Positions 2,818-14,265 of a stretch of 36,050 nucleotides of DNA are shown piece after piece. The translations under genes and the position numbers were made by a program. This DNA comes from a virus. Under the pieces are notes generated by a model. It ran no database searches, had not been told where the DNA came from, and saw only the letters and a list, made by a program, of their open reading frames with translations. Position 1 is the first letter of the stretch. Every line of letters begins with the position of its first letter. The stretch is from the IMG/VR virus record IMGVR_UViG_3300030419_002892, positions 1 through 36,050 of that record; one strand, 5' to 3'.

Positions 2818-4659
2818 ATGGCTGATAAAAGTCTATTTAGTAGATTAAGACGATTATTTTCAACAAATGTAATTGTAAGAAATGTAGGTGGAAAACGATT
2901 AAAAGTTTCTGATACAAGTCGTACACAATCTATAGCAAAAAATAATCTTATTGATAGATATCAAAAAATATTCACTGGTGCTGGTTTAAGTGGATATTCA
3001 GATTCATTATTAACAAAATCAATGAGATTGAATCTTTTCAAAGATTACGAATCAATGGATAGTGATGCAATCGTTTCTTCAGCACTTGATATTTATGCAG
3101 ATGAATCCACAATGAAATCTGAATATGGTGATGTTTTAGAAATTAAAACAGATAATAATCAGATTAAAGAAATATTACACAATTTATTTTATGATATTGT
3201 TAATATTGAATTTAATTTATGGCCTTGGGTTCGTAATATGTGTAAATATGGTGATTTCTTTTTAAAGTTAGAAATTGATGAAAAATATGGTATTACTAAT
3301 GTAGTTCCATTATCAGTTTATGATGTATCTAGATTAGAAGGACTAGACCCAGAAAACCCAGAGTATATCAAATTTTTAATTGAATCAGCTACATCACAAC
3401 ATAGATATAAACCTGAACAATCAGCTACAAGAGAAGAATTGGAAAATTATGAAGTAGCACATTTCAGATTACTTTCGGATTCTAATTATTTACCATATGG
3501 TAAATCACAAATTGAAGGTGGTCGTAAGATTTGGAAACAATTAACTCTTATGGAAGATGCTATGTTAATTCATAGAATTATGAGAGCACCTGAAAAAAGA
3601 ATATTTAAATTAGATATTGGAAATATACCACCAAACGAAGTTGATAATTATATGCAACAAGTTATTAATAAAATGAAAAAAGCACCTGTTGTAGATGAAG
3701 ATACTGGTGATTATAATTTGAAATATAATATGCAAAATATTACTGAAGATTTCTTCTTACCAGTTCGTGGTGGAGATAGTGGAACAAATATTGAATCTCT
3801 TCCAGGTTTAACTTATGAAGCTACTGAAGATATTGAATATCTTAAAAATAAACTTTTATCTTCATTGAGAATACCAAAAGCGTTTTTGGGATATGAAGAA
3901 CAAATTGGTTCTAAAGCAACTTTAGCCGCTGAAGATGTTAGATTTGCAAGAACTATTGAACGTATACAAAGAATAACTTTATCAGAATTAACTAAGATTG
4001 CTATTGTTCATTTATATGCACAAGGTTATCAAGACTCAGACCTAGTAAATTTTGAACTTGATTTGACAAATCCATCTACAATTTATGAACAAGAAAAAGT
4101 TGAACTATGGAATAATAAAACTTCTCTTGCTGAATCTATGATACGTGATGGTTTAGTTTCTTCAGAATGGATTTATAAAAATATATTTGGATTTACAGAG
4201 GACGAAATTAAAGAAGAAGATAAAAATATTATATATGATTATAAACAAAAGTATAGACGTTCGCAGATTGAACAAGAAGGAAATGACCCAGCTAAGACTG
4301 GACAATCAGTAGGTTCACCAAGTGATTTAGCTATGGGTAGAACAGGACATGAATTAAATGATGAGGGTGGTTCACCAGAAGGTGGATGGGATGGAGCAGG
4401 TAGACCTAAAGAACCTAATAAATATGGAAAAGATAGTGGTGCAAGAGGTAGAGACCCACTTGGAGCTCACGATAAGAAAAAAGGTGGTAGTGGAGCACCC
4501 AAATATGGGAAACCTTTAGCACTTGCACACTATGATAAATTAAAAAAATCAATGAAATTTGGTAAAAATGATGTAAAAATTATAAGTGAGGCGTCTGAGG
4601 TTGAAGAAGAGTACAAGAATGAGGTAACTTCTTTAACTAACGGTACATCAAATGACTAA
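2818..4659 (+). CDS. gp20: Portal vertex protein (gp20-like)
   Basis: This 613-residue protein should form the dodecameric ring at the unique capsid vertex that nucleates head assembly and through which DNA enters and leaves. The start follows AAAGAGG at 2805-2811. Portal-family features include the segment DAIVSSALDIYADES near residue 85 and, near residues 340-400, LKNKLLSSLRIPKAFLGY followed by a long helix with RFARTIERIQRI. T4 gp20 is about 524 aa. The surplus is mostly a Gly/Pro/Lys-rich, probably disordered C-terminal tail from about residue 480, followed by a helical end containing IISEASEVEEEY. Unlike in T4, portal follows terminase directly, with no sheath or tube genes between. Confidence 0.93.
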   Translation: MADKSLFSRLRRLFSTNVIVRNVGGKRLKVSDTSRTQSIAKNNLIDRYQKIFTGAGLSGYSDSLLTKSMRLNLFKDYESMDSDAIVSSALDIYADESTMKSEYGDVLEIKTDNNQIKEILHNLFYDIVNIEFNLWPWVRNMCKYGDFFLKLEIDEKYGITNVVPLSVYDVSRLEGLDPENPEYIKFLIESATSQHRYKPEQSATREELENYEVAHFRLLSDSNYLPYGKSQIEGGRKIWKQLTLMEDAMLIHRIMRAPEKRIFKLDIGNIPPNEVDNYMQQVINKMKKAPVVDEDTGDYNLKYNMQNITEDFFLPVRGGDSGTNIESLPGLTYEATEDIEYLKNKLLSSLRIPKAFLGYEEQIGSKATLAAEDVRFARTIERIQRITLSELTKIAIVHLYAQGYQDSDLVNFELDLTNPSTIYEQEKVELWNNKTSLAESMIRDGLVSSEWIYKNIFGFTEDEIKEEDKNIIYDYKQKYRRSQIEQEGNDPAKTGQSVGSPSDLAMGRTGHELNDEGGSPEGGWDGAGRPKEPNKYGKDSGARGRDPLGAHDKKKGGSGAPKYGKPLALAHYDKLKKSMKFGKNDVKIISEASEVEEEYKNEVTSLTNGTSND

Positions 4660-4720: not shown

Positions 4721-5590
4721 ATGGCTCGGAAATTAAAACATTCGAAAATAAAGAATACGAGTATTCTTTTTGAATTATTAACAAGACAGATAACAGCTGA
4801 TGTTTTAGCAGGAAAAAGTACTAAATCAGTAAAAATAGTTAAAAGATATTTTAATGAAAAGACAGAATTAGGAAAAGAACTTCAATTATATCGTATACTT
4901 TCAGAAAAATATTGTGAATCTGAAAATAGAGCTAGTAATTTAGTAGATATTGTCTTAGAATCTAGACAAAAGTTAAATAATTCTAAACTTCGTAATGAAA
5001 AATATAATTTAATTAGAGAAATTAAAGAAAATTATAATGTAAGTGATTTTTTTAATGGTCGTATTTCGAATTATAGATTACTCGCATCAATTTATAATGT
5101 ATTTCAAGCACAAACATCACCTACTGTTTTTAATCCAGAAGAAGTGGTTAATTCCAAATTTACTGTTTTAGAACATATTACAAGTAAAAAGGTTAGTGAA
5201 AAAGAAATAAAAGAAAAAGTATTAAGTGAATATACTAAAAAAGATAAAGATTTAAGATTACTGGCTTATCAAATTCTTGTAGATAAGTTCAACAAAAAAT
5301 ACAAAACGTTAAATGAATCACAAAAAAGTTTACTTAAACATTATATCAATAATATAAGTAATACAAACTCTTTAAGAGAATTCGTAGATTCAGAGGTTAT
5401 TAAAATTAAGAAAACATTAAACGTACATCTACCAAAAGTTACAGATGAAATTACAAAAATTAAATTAACAGAAGCTGTTAATCAAATTGGTAATTTAACA
5501 AAAGGTAGGGTAGTTGATGAAAAACAGGTTTTAACTTTGATGAGATACTATGAATTAGTTAAGGAGATTGAAAATGTCCACAAAAGTTAA
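4721..5590 (+). CDS. Conserved helical protein of the prohead gene cluster, function unknown
   Basis: This encodes 289 residues. The ATG at 4721 is chosen because GGAG (4708-4711) is well spaced from it; the in-frame TTG at 4706 overlaps that site. The N-terminus, ARKLKHSKIKNTSILFELL, is basic and then amphipathic. The rest is almost entirely predicted helix with many Lys, Asn and Ile and no recognisable catalytic motif. Near the C-terminus is KLTEAVNQ, a match to the T4-type prohead protease site (L-x-E|A). Position between portal and protease is where T4 has its small core genes 67 and 68, so a prohead core or portal-associated role is likely by context. I recall similar N-termini in marine T4-like phages but cannot give a function. 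Confidence 0.85.
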   Translation: MARKLKHSKIKNTSILFELLTRQITADVLAGKSTKSVKIVKRYFNEKTELGKELQLYRILSEKYCESENRASNLVDIVLESRQKLNNSKLRNEKYNLIREIKENYNVSDFFNGRISNYRLLASIYNVFQAQTSPTVFNPEEVVNSKFTVLEHITSKKVSEKEIKEKVLSEYTKKDKDLRLLAYQILVDKFNKKYKTLNESQKSLLKHYINNISNTNSLREFVDSEVIKIKKTLNVHLPKVTDEITKIKLTEAVNQIGNLTKGRVVDEKQVLTLMRYYELVKEIENVHKS

Positions 5591-6215
5591 ACTTGAACTT
5601 TTAAGAAAATATATTAAAGAGCTTATAAAACAAGAATTAGCTGAAGCATCTGTAACTGGTAATATTGATGGTGGTGAAGGCCCACCTAAAACACCCGCCG
5701 CCTTTCGTAAGAAAAAATCTAAAAAAATTAAAAAAGCTGGACATGAAAACGGTCACAAAAATCCAGAAGTTTTTGGGTATAAAAAAGTATCTGAAGCTAC
5801 ATTTCACGTAAGAACTGAAGTTGGTAGTGTTTTAGTTGATGCTAGTGGTAAAGGTGAAGCGATTATGAAAGTTGCTAAAGCACTTAAAAAAGGTCGTAAA
5901 GGTATAATAGGTGCAAATAGAGTTGGTGTATCTCAAGCGAAACAAGTTGATAAAAAAATTGAATCTGTAACTGAAGGAAAATACCACGATTACAGAAATG
6001 ATGAATCTCTATCACCAAAACAAAAAATTGGTTACTCGATGAGAGAGGTTCGAGATAAATTAAACGAGTTAGATAAACTTGTTAAAATGAATGTGAGATT
6101 GAAGAACGAAATAGGAGTTGATTCTACATCCTATTGGAAACGAACTCACACGGCTATGAAAAAAATTAGTGAAAGGTTAGTAAAACTAGCAAACAAAGTC
6201 GGTCAACTTTATTAA
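5574..6215 (+). CDS. Basic prohead-cluster protein with candidate protease sites
   Basis: This encodes 213 residues. The ATG at 5574 is chosen because AAGGAG at 5561-5566 is ideally spaced; the TTG at 5568 is too close. It overlaps the upstream gene by 17 bases. The N-terminal 24 residues form a hydrophobic/charged helix ending KQELAE|AS, which fits an L-x-E|A cleavage site. A second candidate, IESVTEGK, lies near residue 133 and resembles the ESVNEG motifs of the gene at 8260. The middle is very Lys-rich (RKKKSKKIKK around residues 45-55), suggesting DNA or scaffold contact. The C-terminal third is helical. By context it may be a core or internal head protein. No enzymatic motif is visible. 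Confidence 0.82.
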   Translation: MSTKVKLELLRKYIKELIKQELAEASVTGNIDGGEGPPKTPAAFRKKKSKKIKKAGHENGHKNPEVFGYKKVSEATFHVRTEVGSVLVDASGKGEAIMKVAKALKKGRKGIIGANRVGVSQAKQVDKKIESVTEGKYHDYRNDESLSPKQKIGYSMREVRDKLNELDKLVKMNVRLKNEIGVDSTSYWKRTHTAMKKISERLVKLANKVGQLY

Positions 6216-6223
6216 TTTTCACT

Positions 6224-6427
6224 ATGAAGAAACCATCTTGGAATAAAGATGGACTTAACTTTTTGGGGAAATTATTAAGTCTATCTAATTTGAAAAAGCG
6301 TTGGCTTGTAGAAGAGATGAAAGTAAAAGGGGAAGAGCCAAACAAAATGGAAACAATAAATTTTATTGATAGATGGATAAAAAGATTAGAAGATTTGAAA
6401 AATGAAATTTTAAAAACACGGAGTTAA
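6224..6427 (+). CDS. Small basic protein, unknown
   Basis: This encodes 67 residues and starts with an ATG 8 bases after the previous stop, with no clear ribosome binding site. The sequence is helical with Trp at four positions and many Lys and Glu. It ends two bases before the GTG start of the protease gene, so it belongs to the same transcription unit. Unlike its neighbours it has no obvious N-terminal leader ending in a cleavage-type Glu, although LVEE occurs mid-protein. The tight packing between two real genes and the lack of any alternative frame support it as a gene. Its function is unknown. Confidence 0.65.
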   Translation: MKKPSWNKDGLNFLGKLLSLSNLKKRWLVEEMKVKGEEPNKMETINFIDRWIKRLEDLKNEILKTRS

Positions 6428-6429
6428 AT

Positions 6430-7041
6430 GTGAAACAACTTATTGTAGATTATTTACCATTTGAAGTAAAACCAGAACAAATTAATGAATCATTAAAAGA
6501 GAATAATGGTAAATTAATTGTTCATGGTGTATTACAAAGAGCAGAAGCTAAAAATCAGAATGGTAGAGTCTATCCACGCGATATTTTACATCGTGAAGCT
6601 AAAAAATATGCAAAAGAGTTTATAAAAGAACGTAGAGCTATGGGAGAACTTGACCATCCAGAGAGTTCAGTAGTCAATTTACAAAACGTATCTCACAATG
6701 TAAAAGAAATGCATTGGGAAGGTGATAATCTATTGGGTACTGTAGAAGTATTAGGTACACCAAGTGGTAATATATTAAAAGAATTATTTAGAAGTGGTAT
6801 TAAATTAGGTATCAGTTCTCGTGGAATGGGTTCAGTAGAAACTGTAAATGAAGAAGGTGGTGACCAAGTTACCCAAGTACAACCTGATTTTGAACTTATT
6901 GCTTTTGATTTTGTTTCTAATCCATCAACACACGGAGCATTTATGCATCCTATGAATGAATCAGTAGATAAAACACAAGGTAGAACTTGTGGAGAATATT
7001 GTAAAGTAGAAGCTGTTATTAATGATATTATGAGAGGTTAA
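6430..7041 (+). CDS. gp21: Prohead core scaffold protease (gp21-like, S80-type)
   Basis: This 203-residue serine protease should sit in the prohead core and, after assembly, cut the scaffold, core proteins and the capsid N-terminus. The start is GTG at 6430 with GGAG at 6420-6423; the overlapping ATG at 6428 runs straight into TGA in another frame. Family hallmarks are NGRVYPRDIL at residues 44-53, MGELDHPES at 71-79 with the probable catalytic His76, and LGISSRGMGSV at 127-136 with the probable catalytic Ser at 129 or 130. T4 gp21 has a similar length (about 212 aa). Two self-cleavage-like sites appear near the N-terminus, QINE|S and SLKE|N. The genes around it carry many candidate substrates. 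Confidence 0.93.
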   Translation: MKQLIVDYLPFEVKPEQINESLKENNGKLIVHGVLQRAEAKNQNGRVYPRDILHREAKKYAKEFIKERRAMGELDHPESSVVNLQNVSHNVKEMHWEGDNLLGTVEVLGTPSGNILKELFRSGIKLGISSRGMGSVETVNEEGGDQVTQVQPDFELIAFDFVSNPSTHGAFMHPMNESVDKTQGRTCGEYCKVEAVINDIMRG

Positions 7042-7045
7042 ACTT

Positions 7046-7429
7046 TTGAACATTTTAGAATCATATAATAAAATTGCTAAATCTTTACTTCTTGAATCCG
7101 AAGATGATAGGTATGTTTCTATAGGATTTGGTAGATTCAAACTAAAAGGTAAAGAAAATGATGACGATGCTGAAGTTTTTGTAAAAACTAAAGGTGGTAA
7201 GTATGTTTCAAGTGCTGACCAATCTTCAGATGATAAGGGAGCTGATAAGGAAGAACCTAAAGGTGGAGAAGATTTAGGTCAAGGTATGGATGACCCAAGT
7301 GATTATGAAAGAGATTTTGATGATGATGAAGAAGCTAAAGCACAAGCATTTAAAGATATGGAAGATGAATTTGATATGGAAGAAGAATCAATTCATCCAT
7401 TTAAAAAATTATTAAATAGGATACAATAA
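7046..7429 (+). CDS. Small acidic prohead-cluster protein with LLE|S leader
   Basis: This encodes 127 residues. The start is TTG at 7046, with GAGAGG at 7032-7037 and no in-frame ATG for a long stretch, so the non-AUG start is the best available. The first 17 residues (MNILESYNKIAKSLLLE) form an amphipathic helix ending in L-L-E|S, a candidate gp21 cleavage site. Next comes a short domain with YVSIGFGRFKLKG, then a strongly acidic low-complexity region from about residue 60 to 115. Composition resembles phage core or internal head proteins. It is translationally coupled to the next gene by a TAATG overlap. Its exact role is unknown; the core assignment is inference from context and leader. 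Confidence 0.75.
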   Translation: MNILESYNKIAKSLLLESEDDRYVSIGFGRFKLKGKENDDDAEVFVKTKGGKYVSSADQSSDDKGADKEEPKGGEDLGQGMDDPSDYERDFDDDEEAKAQAFKDMEDEFDMEEESIHPFKKLLNRIQ

Positions 7430-7668
7430 TGCCTAACTATAAATCAATGATGGAGACTTGGAAGGATTGGAGACTTGACGAAGCTACTTTAGAAAATGAA
7501 ACAAATTTACCTTTTAAAGTAATGGGTATACGTAACAATGATATAATCATTGAAGGTAAAAAAATAAAACTTACTTTGTCTTTTAAAGGTGATGATTTAA
7601 AAAATGCAATTGAAGGTAAAGGTAATAAAAAAGGTAGAGTAGTATTAGCTACAGCCAAAATAAAATAA
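7429..7668 (+). CDS. Small prohead-cluster protein with LDE|A leader
   Basis: This encodes 79 residues, its ATG overlapping the preceding stop (TAATG). The leader MPNYKSMMETWKDWRLDE is followed by ATLEN, giving a textbook L-x-E|A prohead protease site after residue 18. The mature part would be a 61-residue basic protein with alternating hydrophobic residues (FKVMGIRNNDIIIEGKKIKL), probably a small beta domain. A packaged internal head protein is the favoured guess, because leader plus site is the arrangement of T4 internal proteins. There is no recognisable family beyond that. Confidence 0.75.
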   Translation: MPNYKSMMETWKDWRLDEATLENETNLPFKVMGIRNNDIIIEGKKIKLTLSFKGDDLKNAIEGKGNKKGRVVLATAKIK

Positions 7669-7677
7669 GGAACGGTA

Positions 7678-7911
7678 ATGATTAAACTAAAAAAATTAAT
7701 GAAAGAATCAGCGTGGGATAGGAAATTCGGTGAACCATTACCTACCCTTGAAGATGTTGTTAAAAAACACAATGTTAAAGAAGAAACTATAACTGAAGAA
7801 CATACAGTAGTTTTTTCAAAAGCTGAAATGGAACAATTACATAGAGATGGTAAACTTATAAAATCCGACTCTGATGGTAATGAACATACATATATCTATT
7901 CAGAAGACTAA
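7678..7911 (+). CDS. Small prohead-cluster protein, MIKLKKLMKE leader (paralogue of next gene)
   Basis: This encodes 77 residues, with AAGGAAC before the ATG. The first ten residues, MIKLKKLMKE, are followed by SAWDRKFGEP. A ten-residue leader ending in Glu matches the length of T4 capsid-targeting sequences, which gp21 removes after residue 10. The first 68 bases differ from the start of the next gene (7913) at only three positions, showing a recent duplication of the leader and its following segment, after which the two proteins diverge completely. The remainder (residues 30-77) is acidic, with SKAEMEQLHRDGKLIKSD resembling a small helical motif. The function is unknown; an internal head protein is inferred. 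Confidence 0.75.
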   Translation: MIKLKKLMKESAWDRKFGEPLPTLEDVVKKHNVKEETITEEHTVVFSKAEMEQLHRDGKLIKSDSDGNEHTYIYSED

Positions 7912-7912
7912 A

Positions 7913-8260
7913 ATGATTAAACTAAAAAAATTAATAAAAGAGTCAGCTTGGGATAGGAAATTCGGTGAACCATTACCTACTTTAAAAGACGTGATGGAAA
8001 AACACAATTGTGATTGTGGTGGTAGTTGTTGTACTGTAAGTGAAGGTGCAGAAGAAAAAATTAAAGCAAAAAAAGAATTACAAAGGCTTATGAAAGTTGA
8101 GGCTAAATTTAGAGACAGAATGTTGAAGTTAGAACAAGTATTTTTAAGGGATGCTAGACCAGAAAATGTTAAATTAGCAAAAGATATAAAACAATCATAT
8201 AAGAAACACGTAACTCAATTTATGAGAGATGCTGTTTCGTTTTCTAGAAGAGTGAAATAA
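7913..8260 (+). CDS. Prohead-cluster protein with duplicated leader and Cys-rich motif
   Basis: This encodes 115 residues from the ATG at 7913, one base after the upstream stop. Longer in-frame starts would run back through the neighbour and are rejected because this start reproduces the leader of the gene at 7678. Residues 1-23 are almost identical to that paralogue (MIKLKKLIKE|SAWDRKFGEP). Next comes a compact cysteine cluster, NCDCGGSCC (C33, C35, C39, C40), which could bind a metal or form disulphides. A further V-S-E|G possible cleavage site follows at 42-45. The C-terminal 65 residues are a Lys/Arg-rich helix. It ends in a TAATG overlap with the DUF3008 gene. Confidence 0.78.
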   Translation: MIKLKKLIKESAWDRKFGEPLPTLKDVMEKHNCDCGGSCCTVSEGAEEKIKAKKELQRLMKVEAKFRDRMLKLEQVFLRDARPENVKLAKDIKQSYKKHVTQFMRDAVSFSRRVK

Positions 8261-9717
8261 TGCCTGCTAAGTCAAAAGCTCAACAAAGATTTATGGGGAT
8301 GGTTCACGGTCTACAAAAAGGTGAAATAAAACCATCTGATGTATCAAGTAAAGTTAAAAAGGTAGCTAAAGATATGAAGAAAAAAGATGCTGAAGATTTT
8401 GCTTCAACTAAACATAAAGGATTACCTAAGAAAGTGAAAGAAGCATTTTTAAGTGAAAATCCAGCGGCATCAGCCGCAGCTGCTATGGTTATGATGCAAA
8501 TGCAAAATCCTGATACAGGTAAAAAAATAAAAGCAATAACACCATTAAAAAATAAAGACCATAAATTACATGGTAAAGCTAAAGGTATATTCAAAAGATT
8601 AAAAGATAAATTTTCAAAGAAAAAACCACAAGGAACAGTACATAATTATTTACCTAAAGATTTTAAAAGAGAATCCGTAAATGAAGGTAGAAAAGCAATT
8701 CAAGCTTATAAAGAAATGGGTTCAGCATTAACTACCACTATTTATGGAATTAAAAATTTTAGAAAAATAATTAATGATGGCCCATATGATAAAAAACTTG
8801 ATAAAATAACAGGTGAATTATATAAACTTGAAATAGATTTAGAAAAAAAATTACGATTATTAATTCCACAAATGAAAAAGATTTCTGCAGATAAAAGATT
8901 AGAATCCGTAAATGAAAAGAAAAATCCAAAGAGAGAAAAAGTTAAAAAAGATTTTCTTAAATCCTTACAAACTTTAGAGAAAAGAGTTAAAAGAATCAAA
9001 CAATTCGCAAAATCAAATCAATGGGGTCCAGTTAGTAGTTTTGTAGAAGATGGACTTGTATATGATTTAAGAGATTTAGAAAGAGAAATTGACCAAATTA
9101 TATCGATGCCAGTTGATGAATCCGTAAATGAAGGTAAAGTTGAACCAAAAGTAAAATCACGATTAAATGTTCTTACAAAAAGATTAACAGATTTAAAAAG
9201 AGCTGATACACAATTAGAAAAATCTATGTGGGAAGCGGTTATGGAATATACAAAAATATATAATATGGTTAAAGATGGTAAATACTTCGAAACAGCTGGT
9301 TTTAAACAACTACCTGGTTCATTAGAACTTAACCATAAAAGATTTTCACAAAAGTTTTCAAAGAGTTTAGATTCTATTATAAAAAGTACTAAAGATTCAG
9401 TTAAAAGATTACAATTAAAAGAATCCGTAAATGAAGTCGTAAATGAAAAAGTAGTTGTTACTACTAAAAAAGATGATATACCTGGTAATCCAATGAAGAT
9501 GAAAGGTGAAGAAAAAATTAAAAAGTTAGCTTGGAGTGGTAGTGTTGGAATGAAAAAACCAGGTAGTTATGAAATTAAAGGTAATAAGTTAAATGTGAAT
9601 AACATTAGACCTCGTGATAAAGGATTTTTTGTAAGACATTTCACAATGGGTACTGGAATCAGAAAAGCAAATCTATATTATGATGGTGTTCATTGGCAAG
9701 GAAAGAAAAAATTCTAA
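8260..9717 (+). CDS. DUF3008-domain protein with four ESVNE-separated modules
   Basis: This encodes 485 residues, very rich in Lys. Residues 1-60 (MPAKSKAQQRFMGMVHGLQK, then KDAEDFASTKHKGLPKKV) match the DUF3008 family, usually a stand-alone protein of about 60-70 aa. A small Ala/Met-rich stretch follows (65-84). ESVNE then occurs at residues 138-142, 215-219, 287-291 and 388-392, each encoded by the same 15 bases and separating helical segments of 72-101 residues. The last 90 residues look like a different, beta-containing domain. Because Glu in similar settings is the cleavage point of the gp21 protease, this may be a polyprotein cut into peptides inside the head. That is inference. It overlaps both neighbours by TAATG. 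Confidence 0.85.
   Translation: MPAKSKAQQRFMGMVHGLQKGEIKPSDVSSKVKKVAKDMKKKDAEDFASTKHKGLPKKVKEAFLSENPAASAAAAMVMMQMQNPDTGKKIKAITPLKNKDHKLHGKAKGIFKRLKDKFSKKKPQGTVHNYLPKDFKRESVNEGRKAIQAYKEMGSALTTTIYGIKNFRKIINDGPYDKKLDKITGELYKLEIDLEKKLRLLIPQMKKISADKRLESVNEKKNPKREKVKKDFLKSLQTLEKRVKRIKQFAKSNQWGPVSSFVEDGLVYDLRDLEREIDQIISMPVDESVNEGKVEPKVKSRLNVLTKRLTDLKRADTQLEKSMWEAVMEYTKIYNMVKDGKYFETAGFKQLPGSLELNHKRFSQKFSKSLDSIIKSTKDSVKRLQLKESVNEVVNEKVVVTTKKDDIPGNPMKMKGEEKIKKLAWSGSVGMKKPGSYEIKGNKLNVNNIRPRDKGFFVRHFTMGTGIRKANLYYDGVHWQGKKKF
8671..9435 (+). repeat. Four identical GAATCCGTAAATGAA 15-mers (ESVNE motif)
   Basis: Perfect copies of GAATCCGTAAATGAA lie at 8671-8685, 8902-8916, 9118-9132 and 9421-9435, all in frame and encoding ESVNE. 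A partial fifth copy (GTAAATGAA, encoding VNE) follows the last. Identical codon choice despite diverged flanks points to recent spread or DNA-level constraint. Confidence 0.85.
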
Positions 9718-10007
9718 TGATTAAGTTAAAACATATATTAACAGAAAAAAGAGAATTAGGTGGTGCAATAATAGATAAGATTCACGATTTAACTGATAAA
9801 AATGCTCATAATATGGCTAGACTTACACTTGCTAAAGCAATGAGAAATAGAATTCTTATGAAAAATTATGAAGCATTAATGATATTACATACAAAATTTC
9901 GTGATATGAATGATTTAAAATCAGCTCGTGATAGATTAGATAAAGAGTTATTTGCTCAAGCAAAAAAAATGTATAGTGATTATGATATAATACATAACGC
10001 ATTCTAA
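9717..10007 (+). CDS. Small prohead-cluster protein, MIKLKHILTE leader
   Basis: This encodes 96 residues. The ATG at 9717 overlaps the previous stop and gives the leader MIKLKHILTE, close to MIKLKKLMKE and MIKLKKLIKE of the genes at 7678 and 7913. The TTG at 9693 would put it inside the upstream gene and is rejected. Residue 10 is Glu in the setting L-T-E|K, a candidate gp21 site. The rest is a basic helical protein (RLTLAKAMRNRILMKNYEAL and SARDRLDKELFAQAKKMY). A packaged core or internal protein is inferred from the leader and location. There is no known family. Confidence 0.78.
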   Translation: MIKLKHILTEKRELGGAIIDKIHDLTDKNAHNMARLTLAKAMRNRILMKNYEALMILHTKFRDMNDLKSARDRLDKELFAQAKKMYSDYDIIHNAF

Positions 10008-10348
10008 TGAGTAAAAAATCAACATATAAAAAGTTAATGACTGAATTAGATGAAGCACCATTTAGTTCACCATCACAATTACCTTTTAGTTCACCAGAAG
10101 CAAAACAAATGGTAGAAAAAGACATACAGAAAATGTCAAAGATTTTAGGAAAAGCATCACAACAATCTATTAAAACAATGATGGACGGTGTTAAAGGAAA
10201 AAGATATGATGCTATGGATATACAAAGAGCTATTATGAGTGGTAATATAAGAGATACTCATACAGGTGAAAGAGATTTTTTAAGAGTACTTTGGAATAAA
10301 GTACGAGATGGATTTAGAAGATATTCAAAAAGAGGAAAATTGAGATAA
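10007..10348 (+). CDS. Small prohead-cluster protein with LDE|A leader
   Basis: This encodes 113 residues from an ATG overlapping the previous stop. The leader MSKKSTYKKLMTELDE is followed by APFSSP, a clear L-D-E|A prohead protease-type site after residue 16. A short duplicated segment, PFSSPSQLPFSSPEA (18-32), follows. The rest is helical and basic, ending FRRYSKRGKLR. It is the last gene before a 30-base gap holding an ATATTTATA element and a fresh ribosome binding site. It is probably another core or internal head protein, by inference from leader and position. Confidence 0.78.
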   Translation: MSKKSTYKKLMTELDEAPFSSPSQLPFSSPEAKQMVEKDIQKMSKILGKASQQSIKTMMDGVKGKRYDAMDIQRAIMSGNIRDTHTGERDFLRVLWNKVRDGFRRYSKRGKLR

Positions 10349-10351
10349 CTT

Positions 10352-10360
10352 ATATTTATA
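10352..10360 (+). promoter_or_regulatory. ATATTTATA element, candidate late promoter
   Basis: A perfect ATATTTATA copy lies in the 30-base gap between two genes, 18 bases before the next start codon and just upstream of AGGAG (10364-10368). It would separate the leader-protein run from the 10379 gene and bS21. Confidence 0.4.
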
Positions 10361-10378
10361 GTTAGGAGATTAAAGATT

Positions 10379-11005
10379 ATGTCTAAAACAATTAAAATGA
10401 AAAACTTACTTAAAGAAAACTTTAGCGGTACTATGATGGGTGGAGTCGTATCACATAGTCCATTTCACGACAATATTAGTTTATCTAAAATTGTTAAAGA
10501 AAAGTATGGTGATATAGAAGAAGAAAAAGTTGATGTTAAAGGCTTAACTTCTGAAATTTCAAGCTATAACAAATTAGGTGAATCAATTTTTGGTGAATCT
10601 AATATAACAAAAGTAGCTGAAAGACTAAGTTGGATTGCAAATCAAGCTAAATCACATACATTAAGTGAGACCGAAGATTGGTTTGATAAGATTACAGTAA
10701 ATCGTAATATGAAAGAACTTACAGGCCTTTCTGGACAATTTGGTAAAATTGCTAAAGAAGCTAAATCATTACAAGAAAGAATGGGTGCTTTATATGAAGA
10801 TATGGGTAACATTCTTGGTAGGTATTATGAGATAGGTGAACAAGTAACAGAGGTTGAAGGAGACAAAGAGGAATATCAGAAATTCTTTAATGCCGCATTA
10901 AAAAAATTCGGTGTTAGTTCTCCTGACGAATTGGATGATGATAAGAAAAAAGAATTCTTCAATCATGTAGACAAAAATTGGCAAGGTGATAACGAATCTG
11001 ATTAG
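10379..11005 (+). CDS. Helical prohead-cluster protein with LKE|N leader
   Basis: This encodes 208 residues with AGGAG at 10364-10368. The leader MSKTIKMKNLLKE is followed by NFSGTMMGG, giving L-K-E|N after residue 13 as a candidate cleavage site. The central region is a long helix with heptad character (residues 60-155). The C-terminal 45 residues (EYQKFFNAALKKFGVSSPDE, then DDKKKEFFNHVDKNW) form a distinct small helical module that I recall from other phage structural proteins but cannot name. It lies between the leader-protein run and bS21, and a core or internal head role is inferred. No catalytic motif is seen. Confidence 0.8.
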   Translation: MSKTIKMKNLLKENFSGTMMGGVVSHSPFHDNISLSKIVKEKYGDIEEEKVDVKGLTSEISSYNKLGESIFGESNITKVAERLSWIANQAKSHTLSETEDWFDKITVNRNMKELTGLSGQFGKIAKEAKSLQERMGALYEDMGNILGRYYEIGEQVTEVEGDKEEYQKFFNAALKKFGVSSPDELDDDKKKEFFNHVDKNWQGDNESD

Positions 11006-11009
11006 GAGG
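11004..11009 (+). promoter_or_regulatory. Full AGGAGG ribosome binding site of the bS21 gene
   Basis: This is the only complete AGGAGG I found before a start codon here; other genes use AGGAG, GGAG or AAGGA. It sits four bases before a TTG and decides that start, because no in-frame ATG is available at the N-terminus of the S21 domain. Confidence 0.7.
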
Positions 11010-11013
11010 CCAT

Positions 11014-11202
11014 TTGATTTACGTAAAAGTTCGTAAAGGTCAATCTATAGACAAAGCTTTAAGTATCTTAAAGAAAAAAGTAAAAGAATCTAAACTGATG
11101 GTAGAGTTAAGAGAACGTGAGTTCTACAAAAAACCATCAGAAATTAGAAAAGAGAAAAAAGCTAAAGCTAGATTACGATATAAAAAAAATTTAAATAATT
11201 AG
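11014..11202 (+). CDS. rpsU: Ribosomal protein bS21 homologue
   Basis: This encodes 62 residues. MIYVKVRKGQSIDKALSILK, then ELREREFYKKPSEIRKEKKA, matches the bS21 pattern: a beta strand with VKVR, a helix, then the REFY-KPSE signature and a basic tail. Bacterial S21 is about 65-71 aa. S21 binds the 30S platform beside the anti-Shine-Dalgarno region and affects initiation, so a phage copy could replace the host protein and favour phage mRNAs. The start is TTG at 11014, only four bases after AGGAGG (11004-11009), the strongest ribosome binding site in the window. It is embedded in the head-assembly operon, which would make it late-expressed. Confidence 0.88.
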   Translation: MIYVKVRKGQSIDKALSILKKKVKESKLMVELREREFYKKPSEIRKEKKAKARLRYKKNLNN

Positions 11203-11222
11203 TTATATTTTTCAATTTGTGT

Positions 11223-11231
11223 ATATTTATA
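11223..11231 (+). promoter_or_regulatory. ATATTTATA element upstream of scaffold gene
   Basis: A perfect ATATTTATA copy lies 20 bases after the bS21 stop, preceded by TTTGTG. It lies 131 bases before the scaffold start, the longest leader of the set, and the intervening sequence holds three inverted repeats. Confidence 0.4.
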
Positions 11232-11241
11232 TATACAAAAA

Positions 11242-11277
11242 TACACTACGGCATTTTTTTAGCCTTCATGTAGTGTA
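11242..11277. other. Inverted repeat, 8-bp stem TACACTAC/GTAGTGTA
   Basis: TACACTAC (11242-11249) pairs perfectly with GTAGTGTA (11270-11277). Inside, GGC (11250-11252) can pair with GCC (11262-11264) around a T-rich loop. No U-tract follows on the + strand, but on the minus strand five Ts follow at once (complement of 11237-11241), so it looks like a minus-strand terminator or a structured leader rather than a + strand terminator. Confidence 0.55.
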
Positions 11278-11296
11278 ATCAAAATGTTAATCACAT

Positions 11297-11316
11297 TATA
11301 GTTCCCAATAACTATA
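11297..11316. other. Inverted repeat, 7-bp stem TATAGTT/AACTATA
   Basis: This is a perfect 7-base stem with a six-base loop (CCCAAT), AT-rich, in the untranslated region ahead of the scaffold gene. It is probably weak alone; its interest is as one of three consecutive hairpins. Confidence 0.45.
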
Positions 11317-11329
11317 TTAATTACAACTA

Positions 11330-11349
11330 ATGATTATTAATTTAATCAT
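11330..11349. other. Inverted repeat adjacent to the scaffold ribosome binding site
   Basis: ATGATTA and TAATCAT form a perfect 7-base stem around TTAATT, ending one base before the AGGAG ribosome binding site (11350-11354) of the scaffold gene. It could influence translation initiation or be a protein-binding palindrome. Confidence 0.45.
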
Positions 11350-11362
11350 AGGAGAAAACGTA

Positions 11363-12565
11363 ATGGATGATTTATTAAAAGAAGCCATTGCAGATGCAAA
11401 AGCAGTTCGTGAAACAGCTCTTGAAAACGCTAAAATCGCTTTAGAAGAAGCTTTCACACCTCGCTTACAATCTATGCTTTCTAAAAAAATCCAATCTGAA
11501 ATCGATGTTGAAGAACAAGAAGATGAAATGGATGATGAAGAAGCTCCTGAAGAGGAAGCTCCTGAAGAAGGATATGGTTGGAACGAGGACGATGAAGACC
11601 CTTCTGATGACCATTCTGAAGAAGAACCTGAAATGGAAGAAGATGAAGAAGAAATGGGTGATGAAGAAGAAGAAGCAGGTGAAGAAGAAATGGATATGGA
11701 AGGCGTGATTGAAATTAATGGTGTTAAATATGCACCAGTAGTTTCTGAAGAAGAGGAAGAAGAAGCAGGAGAAGAGGAAGAGGAAATGGAAGAATCCGAT
11801 GACCTTGACCTTGAAGCTGTTCTTCGTGAATTGGAAGAAGAAGATGTTAATGAAGAAGAAGAAGTTGACGAATCAAAAGAAGAAGTTGATGAAGAAACTG
11901 AAACCGTTGATGAAGACGAAGAAGTTGATGAATCAAAAGAAGAAGTTGATGAAGTTGATAAATCTTCTGGTGTTGGCAAAGGTGATAACCATAAAGGTGA
12001 ATCTGACCAATCTTCAGCTATCGGTTCAAAAGATAAAGCTAAACACGAATCAGTTGAAGAAACTGAGGAAGTTGTTACTGAATCTGAAGAAACTGAAGAA
12101 GTTAATGAAGATGAAGATATTGACCTTGAAGAAGTCATCGCCGCTCTTTCTGAAGAAGAAGACGAAGATGAAGAGAAAAATGAAGTCTCTAAACTTCAAT
12201 CTGAACTTGACGAGCATCGTAATGTCGTTAAATATCTACGTTCTAAATTGAATGAAGTTAATTTGCTTAACGCAAAGTTACTATTCACAAACAAACTTTT
12301 CCGTTCATTTGGTTTAACAAATGACCAGAAAATGAAAGTTGTGGAAAACTTTGATAGAGCACATAACCTTCGTGAAGTTAAATTGGTTTATTCCACTTTA
12401 GCTGAATCTTTTGGAACTAAAAAAACTAAAAAAGAAATTAAAGAATCAAAAGGTTCAGCTTCTAAAGCTACAGCCTCAACAAAATCTGAAAAGCAAGAAC
12501 AAGAAGTAATTGCTGAAGGTTCAGAATTGAGAGACCGTTTTAAGAAGTTAGCCGGTATTATTTAA
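11363..12565 (+). CDS. gp22: Prohead core scaffold protein (gp22-like), very acidic
   Basis: This encodes 400 residues from the ATG at 11363 with AGGAG at 11350-11354; the longer in-frame reading from 11330 runs through the hairpin and is rejected. The protein should form the inner core around which gp23 assembles and be degraded to peptides by gp21. The N-terminus MDDLLKE|AIADAKAVRE has an L-K-E|A site. Residues 45-270 are extremely Glu/Asp-rich low complexity. From about 272 a coiled coil begins (LQSELDEHRNVVKYLRSKLN), then LLNAKLLFTNKLF, a string I associate with the scaffolds of marine T4-like phages. VIAE|GSEL near the end is another candidate site. T4 gp22 is about 270 aa, so the acidic region accounts for the extra length. 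It directly precedes the capsid gene, as in T4. Confidence 0.88.
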   Translation: MDDLLKEAIADAKAVRETALENAKIALEEAFTPRLQSMLSKKIQSEIDVEEQEDEMDDEEAPEEEAPEEGYGWNEDDEDPSDDHSEEEPEMEEDEEEMGDEEEEAGEEEMDMEGVIEINGVKYAPVVSEEEEEEAGEEEEEMEESDDLDLEAVLRELEEEDVNEEEEVDESKEEVDEETETVDEDEEVDESKEEVDEVDKSSGVGKGDNHKGESDQSSAIGSKDKAKHESVEETEEVVTESEETEEVNEDEDIDLEEVIAALSEEEDEDEEKNEVSKLQSELDEHRNVVKYLRSKLNEVNLLNAKLLFTNKLFRSFGLTNDQKMKVVENFDRAHNLREVKLVYSTLAESFGTKKTKKEIKESKGSASKATASTKSEKQEQEVIAEGSELRDRFKKLAGII

Positions 12566-12609: not shown

Positions 12610-14265
12610 ATGTCAAATAAAAATCTTGGAACAATCGAGAAGTTGATGGACGGATTTAATCCTTATCGCGACCGTATCGAAGAATCCCGCGGATTAGTAA
12701 AAAAGTGGGAGCCAACTGGATTATTGGAAGGTTTAGAGGATGAACAAAAAACTCTTGGAATGTCTACACTATTAGAAAACCAAGCTCGTCAGTTAATTGA
12801 TGAAGCCAGCAAAACTGGTACTTCAGCAAATTCTGAAGAGTGGTCTGGTGTAGCACTTCCTTTGGTTCGTAAAATTTTTGGTGAACTTGCTTCACAAGAA
12901 TTTGTTAGTGTTCAACCTATGAACTTACCATCTGGTCTTATCTTCTATCTCGATTTTAAATATGGAACATCTCAAGCCGCTTTTGGTGTTGGTGAACAAG
13001 TATTTGGTGTAACATCAGGTTCTAGTGACCCAACTGGTGGTCTTTATGGTGCTGGTGCATTTGGATATTCTATAAACGATGCCTGTGGTGTTGCAGACGC
13101 TCAAACTGATATGACAGCGTCAACTACTTGGGCATCTGTTGATTTCGAACCTGATTTGTCAGCTTCAGCAGTATCTACAACAGTAGGTACAGGGTTGAAA
13201 ACATTCGATTATCCTATTTCAAATATGAGTAATCCTGACCTTGAAGGTGTTAGAGCATTCGAACCAACTGGTTCAACTGCATTTACCGCTTACTATCCAG
13301 CTTACACACACGTAGTTAATAGTTCTGGTGTTGAAGTAGCTCCTTCTGATTCAGCTGCTGCATCTGTTCGCTTTATTATTAAAGAAGCTGCCGCAACTGG
13401 TGGTGCTACAGTATCAGTACAATATCATAAAGCTCCAGCAGACACCTCACGTGGTGACTTTGAAGCTGATGCTGGTTCAGGTCCACCTGAAACAGATGTT
13501 GATATCCCTGAAATCGATATCGCAATGCGTTCAATCGCTATTGTTGCTAAAACACGTAAATTGAAAGCAGTATGGACTCCTGAGTTAGCTCAAGACCTTA
13601 ACGCTTATCATAGTGTTGATGCAGAAGCAGAACTTACTTCACTACTTAGTGAATATGTATCAATGGAAATCGACCTTGAAATCCTTGATATGCTTCGTTT
13701 AAATGCAAGAGCTAAAACAGAACGTTGGAGTGCAAGAGTTGGATATGAATATAATTCATCAACTTCGTTGTTTGCAGAATCTTCAGCGAGCTCAAATGCA
13801 TACACAAAAGGTGATTGGTTCCAGACTCTTGGTAACAAGATACAGTCTGTTTCCAACGCTATTCATCAGAAAACACTACGTGGAGGTGCAAACTTCTTAG
13901 TAGTTAGTCCTGAAGTTGCTACAATCCTTGAATCTATTCCTGGATATGCAACATCATCTGATGGTGATGCTAACAACAAATCCTATGCAATGGGTGTACA
14001 AAAAGCGGGTATGTTAAATAACCGTTTCACCGTATATAAAAATCCATACCAGTTCGAGAATGTAATTCTTGTTGGTTTCAGAGGAAGTAACTTCCTAGAA
14101 ACTGGTGCTGTGTATGCTCCTTATGTACCATTGATTATGACACCTCTTGTTTACGACCCAACTAACTTTACACCACGTAAAGGTGTGATGACACGATACG
14201 CTAAAGAAATCGTGCGTCCTGAATTTTACGGTAAAGTTATTGTTGCTGACGTTAACTATGTTTAA
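12610..14265 (+). CDS. gp23: Major capsid protein (gp23-like)
   Basis: This encodes 551 residues with TTGGAG at 12597-12602. This HK97-fold protein builds the capsid hexamers. T4 gp23 signatures are present: FVSVQPMNLPSGLIFYLDFK around residues 97-116 and RKLKAVWTPELAQDLNAYHS with DAEAELTSLLS around 317-345. The N-terminal delta region ends QLIDE|ASKTG, with Glu at residue 65, the same number at which I recall T4 gp23 being cleaved (LTE|A). The middle (about 150-310) holds Ala/Ser/Thr-rich sequence typical of the family's variable insertion. Codon use here is somewhat less AT-biased than in neighbours, as expected for a highly expressed gene. A strong terminator follows, so it ends a transcription unit. 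Confidence 0.95.
   Translation: MSNKNLGTIEKLMDGFNPYRDRIEESRGLVKKWEPTGLLEGLEDEQKTLGMSTLLENQARQLIDEASKTGTSANSEEWSGVALPLVRKIFGELASQEFVSVQPMNLPSGLIFYLDFKYGTSQAAFGVGEQVFGVTSGSSDPTGGLYGAGAFGYSINDACGVADAQTDMTASTTWASVDFEPDLSASAVSTTVGTGLKTFDYPISNMSNPDLEGVRAFEPTGSTAFTAYYPAYTHVVNSSGVEVAPSDSAAASVRFIIKEAAATGGATVSVQYHKAPADTSRGDFEADAGSGPPETDVDIPEIDIAMRSIAIVAKTRKLKAVWTPELAQDLNAYHSVDAEAELTSLLSEYVSMEIDLEILDMLRLNARAKTERWSARVGYEYNSSTSLFAESSASSNAYTKGDWFQTLGNKIQSVSNAIHQKTLRGGANFLVVSPEVATILESIPGYATSSDGDANNKSYAMGVQKAGMLNNRFTVYKNPYQFENVILVGFRGSNFLETGAVYAPYVPLIMTPLVYDPTNFTPRKGVMTRYAKEIVRPEFYGKVIVADVNYV

Follow-up and report, generated by a model that had tools for sequence, protein, structure and literature searches.

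Capsid-targeting-like leaders and exchangeable, putatively protease-trimmed modules in the head genes of a marine T4-like phage

IMG/VR record IMGVR_UViG_3300030419_002892, a sequence of 36,050 bases analyzed here in full (the window), is a fragment of the genome of a marine T4-like phage. Terminase (1223-2806) and portal (2818-4659) genes are followed by about a dozen small genes, all on the same strand, in the interval between the portal and the gene of the major capsid protein (12610..14265, + strand; phrog_138). Most of these small genes begin with a short leader ending in hydrophobic-x-Glu, and it is these leaders, and the modules that follow them, that concern us here. Among them lies the gene (6430..7041, +) of an S77-family prohead protease homologous to T4 gp21 (PF03420, E=1.6e-29; phrog_207): on alignment His76 in GELDHP and Ser129/130 in SSRG are invariant with T4 gp21, and the enzyme is predicted to cut after hydrophobic-x-Glu. 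The predicted propeptide of the capsid protein ends in just such a site, LIDE|A, its Glu being residue 65 (codon 12802-12804); E65 is invariant and aligns with LTE|A of T4 gp23, likewise at residue 65.

The original prediction listed nine leaders, three of them of exactly ten residues; all nine are present in genes with plausible starts (all +), and the count of three holds. The three open small proteins: MIKLKKLMKE|S (7678-7707; gene 7678..7911), MIKLKKLIKE|S (7913-7942; gene 7913..8260, which has a second site, TVSE|G) and MIKLKHILTE|K (9717-9746; gene 9717..10007). Each has the hydrophobic residues at 4, 7 and 8 and the Glu10 of the T4 capsid-targeting sequence, whereas the remaining leaders, of 7-24 residues, fit that pattern only by their Glu end. 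These are a 24-residue leader (5574-5645, QELAE|A) on a head accessory protein (5574..6215); the 17-residue MNILESYNKIAKSLLLE (7046-7096, SLLLE|S) on an acidic protein with a TTG start (7046..7429); the 18-residue tryptophan-type leader MPNYKSMMETWKDWRLDE (7429-7482, WRLDE|A) and the 16-residue MSKKSTYKKLMTELDE (10007-10054, TELDE|A), both on small proteins (7429..7668 and 10007..10348); the 13-residue MSKTIKMKNLLKE (10379-10417, NLLKE|N) on a conserved head accessory protein (10379..11005); and DLLKE|A at residue 7 of a very acidic, gp22-like scaffold candidate (11363..12565) that precedes the capsid gene. Leader-free are gene 6224, the protease gene 6430, the DUF3008 gene 8260 and the S21 gene 11014. 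Leaders on nine of 13 genes compare with a rate of 0.213 in control proteins, that is, other proteins from the same contigs (P = 3e-4). As had been claimed, T4 has no such run between genes 21 and 22, which are adjacent.

That account of the run overlooked two things: the gene at 8260..9717 (+) and the internal sites of the 5574-6215 protein. The former encodes a predicted polyprotein in which a DUF3008 domain (PF11450) is followed by modules joined by four copies of ESVNE at residues 142, 219, 291 and 392, each encoded by the same 15 bases, GAATCCGTAAATGAA (8671..8685, 8902..8916, 9118..9132 and 9421..9435, all +). AlphaFold2 gives discrete helical blocks, with confidence dropping at 214-221, 288-293 and 389-409, next to the sites that end at 219, 291 and 392/396, that is, three of the four joints; confidence is low overall and we take the model as supportive only. 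A structure search with this low-confidence model against PDB gave no match at E<=0.001. The DUF3008 domain may be the targeting part of this leaderless protein. In the 5574-6215 protein an exchangeable insert lies between two internal sites, VSE|A at 5787-5795 and ESVTE|G at 5961-5975, and inserts of proteins of this type are shared with polyprotein modules.

The ESVNE joints use the serine codon TCC, which makes up 2.6% of serine codons in the window, and the 15-base element recurs as 83 exact copies, always on the coding strand, across the loci fetched from relatives (80 encoding the protease, 41 encoding protein 7913 and 80 encoding the capsid protein). Because the 15 bases are identical and include this rare codon, DNA-level copying of the joints is likely. 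It could even be supposed that ESVNE is nothing but a repeated stretch of DNA by which modules are moved, and that no proteolysis takes place. The four identical copies, the rare codon and the 83 copies elsewhere speak for this; junctions that differ in both DNA and protein (TELDE|A, HILTE|K, LFTE|D) nonetheless share hydrophobic-x-Glu and nothing else, and we consider the idea very unlikely. A second repeat, D2, is a 97-nt tandem duplication (7677-7773 and 7912-8008, 88% identical) covering the leader and a segment, RKFGEPLPTL, of the 7678 and 7913 genes, which thus have the same leader cassette ahead of unrelated bodies. The RKFGEPLPTL segment comes after many type I and ESY-type leaders; it may act as an additional element for docking or processing.

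If the leaders direct processing, leader and site should be conserved in relatives while the mature parts vary, and this is the pattern found. The site is present in 47/47 orthologues of the 5574 protein, 10/10 of 7046, 9/9 of 7429, 69/71 of 7678, 67/80 aligned homologues of 7913, 15/15 orthologues of 9717, 38/42 of 10007 and 51/53 of 10379, where E13 is nearly invariant (the structure model of the 10379 protein is of low confidence, leader included). What stands upstream of the site can change. In five of the ten 7046 orthologues the site is internal to a longer protein; the 9717 body is preceded elsewhere by ...EQLISE| at residue 44 (L092) or ...RTLTE| at residue 40 (L041); and the 10007 body, which follows MSKKSTYKKLMTELDE| as a gene of its own, is also found inside polyproteins at residue 259 (L149) or 331 (L108), behind ...KKKKKVDE| or ...ILESVDE|, with DE|A kept.

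Among 560 head accessory proteins of the relatives, 81% have hydrophobic-x-Glu with the Glu at positions 7-22, against 21% of 534 controls; averaged over body families the N-terminal figures are 0.64 for head proteins and 0.38 for controls, and at positions 31-46 the per-family excess is gone (0.24 vs 0.30). Could this be chance in AT-rich genes rich in Lys and Glu? Both residues are common, and a decoy with Lys in place of Glu is likewise raised at the N-terminus of the head proteins, because the leaders are Lys-rich; N-terminal counts alone are therefore indecisive, and sharper tests of position and junction were used. In the 154 head proteins with Glu10, hydrophobic residues occupy positions 2, 4, 7 and 8 in 81, 88, 87 and 97% of cases, and positions 3, 5, 6 and 9 in 7, 10, 1 and 15%. 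The full 4/7/8/10 pattern occurs in 132/469 head proteins against 11/534 controls, and seven of those 11 carry the same MxKL leader on genes beyond the capsid gene. The type I leader (MxKLxxLLxE) stands ahead of 30/72 head body families and 8/85 control families, the tryptophan-type leader ahead of 13/72 and 0/85. For packaging of T4 IPIII its first ten residues are enough, residues 4 and 7 serving targeting and residues 8 and 10 processing (PMC9026906); IPII and IPIII of T4 start MKTYQEFIAE|A. In the Flavobacterium phage immuto (L083:1960-3260) two genes upstream of the terminase have similar N-termini of the form FLTENKLT.N...LKE, possibly a further type of leader.

Single-linkage clustering of the head proteins lumped 713 of them together, a sign of module sharing, and the family counts given above were therefore redone with coverage limits. 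The sharing itself was examined by an all-against-all BLAST for homologous segments with unrelated upstream sequences, the left ends of which were scored. At 173 of 261 well-supported module boundaries the homology begins at hydrophobic-x-Glu, with V, I, L, M or F at P3, where 52.2 were expected (z=19). Decoys in which E was replaced by D, K, R, N, Q, S, T, G, A or others gave ratios of 0.2-1.4 (cysteine, with one case, is too rare to judge), and decoys in which the spacing of the hydrophobic residue was changed gave 1.6-2.2; control proteins of the same phages gave 11 junctions where 13.0 were expected. Since many boundaries come from few families, the figure obtained by counting each downstream module family once matters: the site is found in 17.9 of 36 families, against 6.0 expected. 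As an illustration, cutting sequences at the sites places 27 module families in at least two of four contexts – behind a leader alone, in DUF3008 polyproteins, in 5574-type proteins and internally in other proteins – the boundary test being the actual test. The module RDNVGMAYKRTL...ESVNE, for example, is found in a 5574-type protein (L194) and in a DUF3008 polyprotein (L185), and a separate gene starting MIKLKELLNE|RMSKREAG (L025) corresponds to the last module of a polyprotein in another phage (L046). At the level of sequence these comparisons show exchange of modules between phages at the predicted cut sites.

They also bear on two of the alternatives. The decoys of residue and position at junctions, the control proteins and the enzyme family described below all contradict chance, which is barely credible as an explanation. 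Alternatively, the leader could be an uncleaved docking helix, with the Glu part of the docking surface: residues 4 and 7, which serve targeting, are conserved, and in T4 an Asp at position 10 blocks processing and leaves targeting intact (PMC9026906). Yet hydrophobic P3 and Glu are retained also at internal junctions, where the upstream sequence is wholly different, and the phage encodes a protease of a family that cuts at hydrophobic-x-Glu; targeting without cutting is thus improbable.

Independent enzymes carry the same signature. A gene for a HAD-phosphatase-like protein located beyond the capsid gene in some relatives (L162:14418-14942) starts MLKLVDLLTE|KKLRVFDFDDTLV. In HAD-type homologues from viral contigs (L210-L289), 64/64 distinct N-termini have a site no more than 14 residues from the motif, against a background of 8.6%, and the leaders are of at least three unrelated types (MIKLKDLLLE, MKVEFGKVYSNPFxNAFKPINE and MIARSLFTE), each closing with hydrophobic-x-Glu immediately ahead of the fold. 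HAD-type enzymes with a leader also occur in contigs of >200 kb. In cyanophages the NMNAT/cytidylyltransferase (L206:38819-40048; L290-L295) starts MKSFLQFLKE|A, MKSFSQFLTE|T, MKNFLAFITE|A and similar. NMNAT is reported from several cyanophage virion proteomes, and the pattern extends to other virion proteins. For S-CREM2 (OR473000), five of the six annotated proteins with the 4/7/8/10 pattern in the stretches considered (L296-L298) are in the virion proteome (PMC10665884), as against 42/177 proteins overall (Fisher P=0.003). The virion-detected proteins with the leader MKxFxxFLxE are a SAM hydrolase, an APH-like kinase, the cytidylyltransferase, ORF13 and ORF136, and in the Cas9-like protein, likewise detected in virions, RFASFMAE|A lies near the N-terminus but shifted inward by a few residues. 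S-SCSM1 virions (PMC9602691) contain a DUF3008 protein and its neighbours, together with an NMNAT starting MKSFLQFLKE|A. As S-CREM2 and S-SCSM1 are distant phages, these data support the rule and not this phage directly. The cited proteome papers, as far as their text was available, contain no mention of the leader in NMNAT or the other virion enzymes.

Taken together, the leaders, the sites, the protease, the conserved capsid site and the exchange of modules at sites, all read from sequence, point to a modular and expanded head-cargo system of T4 type, composed of leader-targeted, protease-trimmed proteins and of polyproteins, to which we assign a probability of roughly 0.8. Cleavage, packaging, injection and cargo function in this phage we infer, the corresponding steps being those described for T4 (leader-core binding, cutting at shell completion, exit of propeptides and injection: PMC9026906, PMC9958956, PMC3012670). 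N-terminal capsid-targeting leaders would bind the scaffold core and so build the small proteins into the prohead. Once the shell is complete, the S77 protease would cut after hydrophobic-x-Glu, removing the leaders and letting the propeptides leave; the same cutting would split polyproteins, that of 8260-9717 among them, into their modules. The mature products, ~45-130 residues long, would stay inside the head alongside the DNA and would probably be injected into the cell. Since module ends are set by the cut sites, cargo modules could be swapped between genes by joining at the site.

A different fate for these proteins deserves weighing: they could be core proteins rather than cargo, scaffold-like as T4 gp22, gp67 and gp68, cut many times over and lost as fragments before DNA is packaged. 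The genes do occupy the interval from portal to capsid, like 67 and 68 in T4, single proteins contain multiple sites, and the proteins at 7046, 10379 and 11363 are acidic (net charges -17, -12 and -99). Set against this, the bodies between sites are conserved modules of 45-130 residues, many of them basic, which are found elsewhere as genes of their own with a leader; and a DUF3008 homologue is detected in S-SCSM1 virions and the same leader is found on enzymes in S-CREM2 virions. We regard the core-protein explanation as unlikely for the set as a whole. The original prediction, in which the T4 core has been expanded into a battery of packaged proteins, is upheld by the 4/7/8/10 match, by a Glu junction that persists when leaders are replaced and when genes fuse or split, and by the pattern in virion enzymes. 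It is weakened for the 7046, 10379 and 11363 proteins, which may be core or scaffold proteins and not cargo; some acidic members may be destroyed, as are T4 gp67 and gp68, and the 7046-7429 protein may be either core protein or cargo. The 11363-12565 scaffold candidate has no family match in PHROGs or Pfam.

Several observations weigh against the head-cargo interpretation. A few orthologues lack Glu10, some having Asp10 instead (7913 orthologues L052 and L016); most of these have another site slightly downstream, for example ITE|G after Asp10 leaders. The specificity of the 6430-7041 protease is assumed from that of T4. The polyprotein gene 8260 has no leader, nor have 6224 and 11014. PHROGs and Pfam searches with the small proteins return only the protease, DUF3008, S21 and weak matches to families of unknown function, leaving the bodies without a recognized function. 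Finally, the virion proteomics comes from distant cyanophages, not from this phage or its close relatives, and the authors of those studies state that CsCl-purified virions could hold contaminants.

Some features of the locus stand apart from this question. A bS21 ribosomal protein gene (11014-11202; phrog_21469) lies inside the head cluster directly before the scaffold gene, a position kept in most relatives. The C-terminal 40 residues of the 10379-11005 protein (FFxxALKKFGVxSPxEL...FFNxVDxNW) are also found in proteins of Vibrio, Tenacibaculum and Pseudomonas jumbo phages, some of them annotated as DNA ligase. No phage record matched the region by megablast, and a scan of genome contigs for a host returned three contigs from unrelated bins, so that no host is assigned.

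Were the head-cargo reading true, a sequence rule would be at hand that predicts which uncharacterized phage proteins ride in the head, and module exchange at cut sites would be a new route to cargo variation in phages. The leader rule already sorts the independent S-CREM2 virion proteome, and it offers a reason for the presence in cyanophage virions of NMNAT, SAM hydrolase and kinase, which their discoverers could not separate from contamination. Leaders and linkers would, in addition, be candidate tags for bringing proteins into phage heads. More tentatively, in a large group of T4-like aquatic phages the prohead protease may serve an exchangeable cargo library, with one module pool shared by polyproteins and leader genes and with the linker DNA GAATCCGTAAATGAA as the recombination joint of a cassette-like re-assortment.

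Literature searches on marine T4-like phages, aimed at polyproteins or targeting leaders, gave nothing on the present system. Nor was any description found of cargo polyproteins that exchange at cut sites, or of the targeting pattern in cyanophage virion enzymes, in literature among which subscription papers are thinly covered. Several known systems are nonetheless close. The inner-body and ejection proteins of phiKZ, 201phi2-1 and SPN3US likewise include many head proteins cut after Glu, with several sites per precursor; there, in contrast, propeptides are mostly long and precursors paralogous, the motif of phiKZ is S/A-x-E where here P3 is V, I, L, M or F at 173 of 261 module boundaries, and for those three phages we found no description of cargo exchange between precursors at the sites. 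DarA and DarB of P1 and the polyvalent proteins are also N-terminally targeted, head-packaged proteins and multidomain polypeptides, features predicted here from sequence; polyvalent proteins have recognizable effector domains, whereas the polyproteins here show only DUF3008 (Pfam). The cyanophage virion enzymes (NMNAT, SAM hydrolase, kinase) share the leader pattern MKxFxxFLxE, but their genes are scattered. Closest are the T4 internal proteins IPI, IPII, IPIII and Alt, whose capsid-targeting sequence is cut by gp21 (L/I-x-E). Proteins of this type are characterized by leaders of 10-19 residues and by injection with the DNA and action on host defences. Common to both are a ten-residue leader with hydrophobic residues at 4, 7 and 8, Glu10 and a small or polar P1′, an S77 protease, and a conserved leader ahead of diverse bodies. 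Unlike T4, the present phage has a run of nine leader genes within its head cluster, leaders of several types, polyproteins, modules exchanged at cut sites and a P3 that is often Val in the internal ESVNE sites. Because leader, protease and site are those of T4, we see in it a variant of the T4 system and not a new kind.

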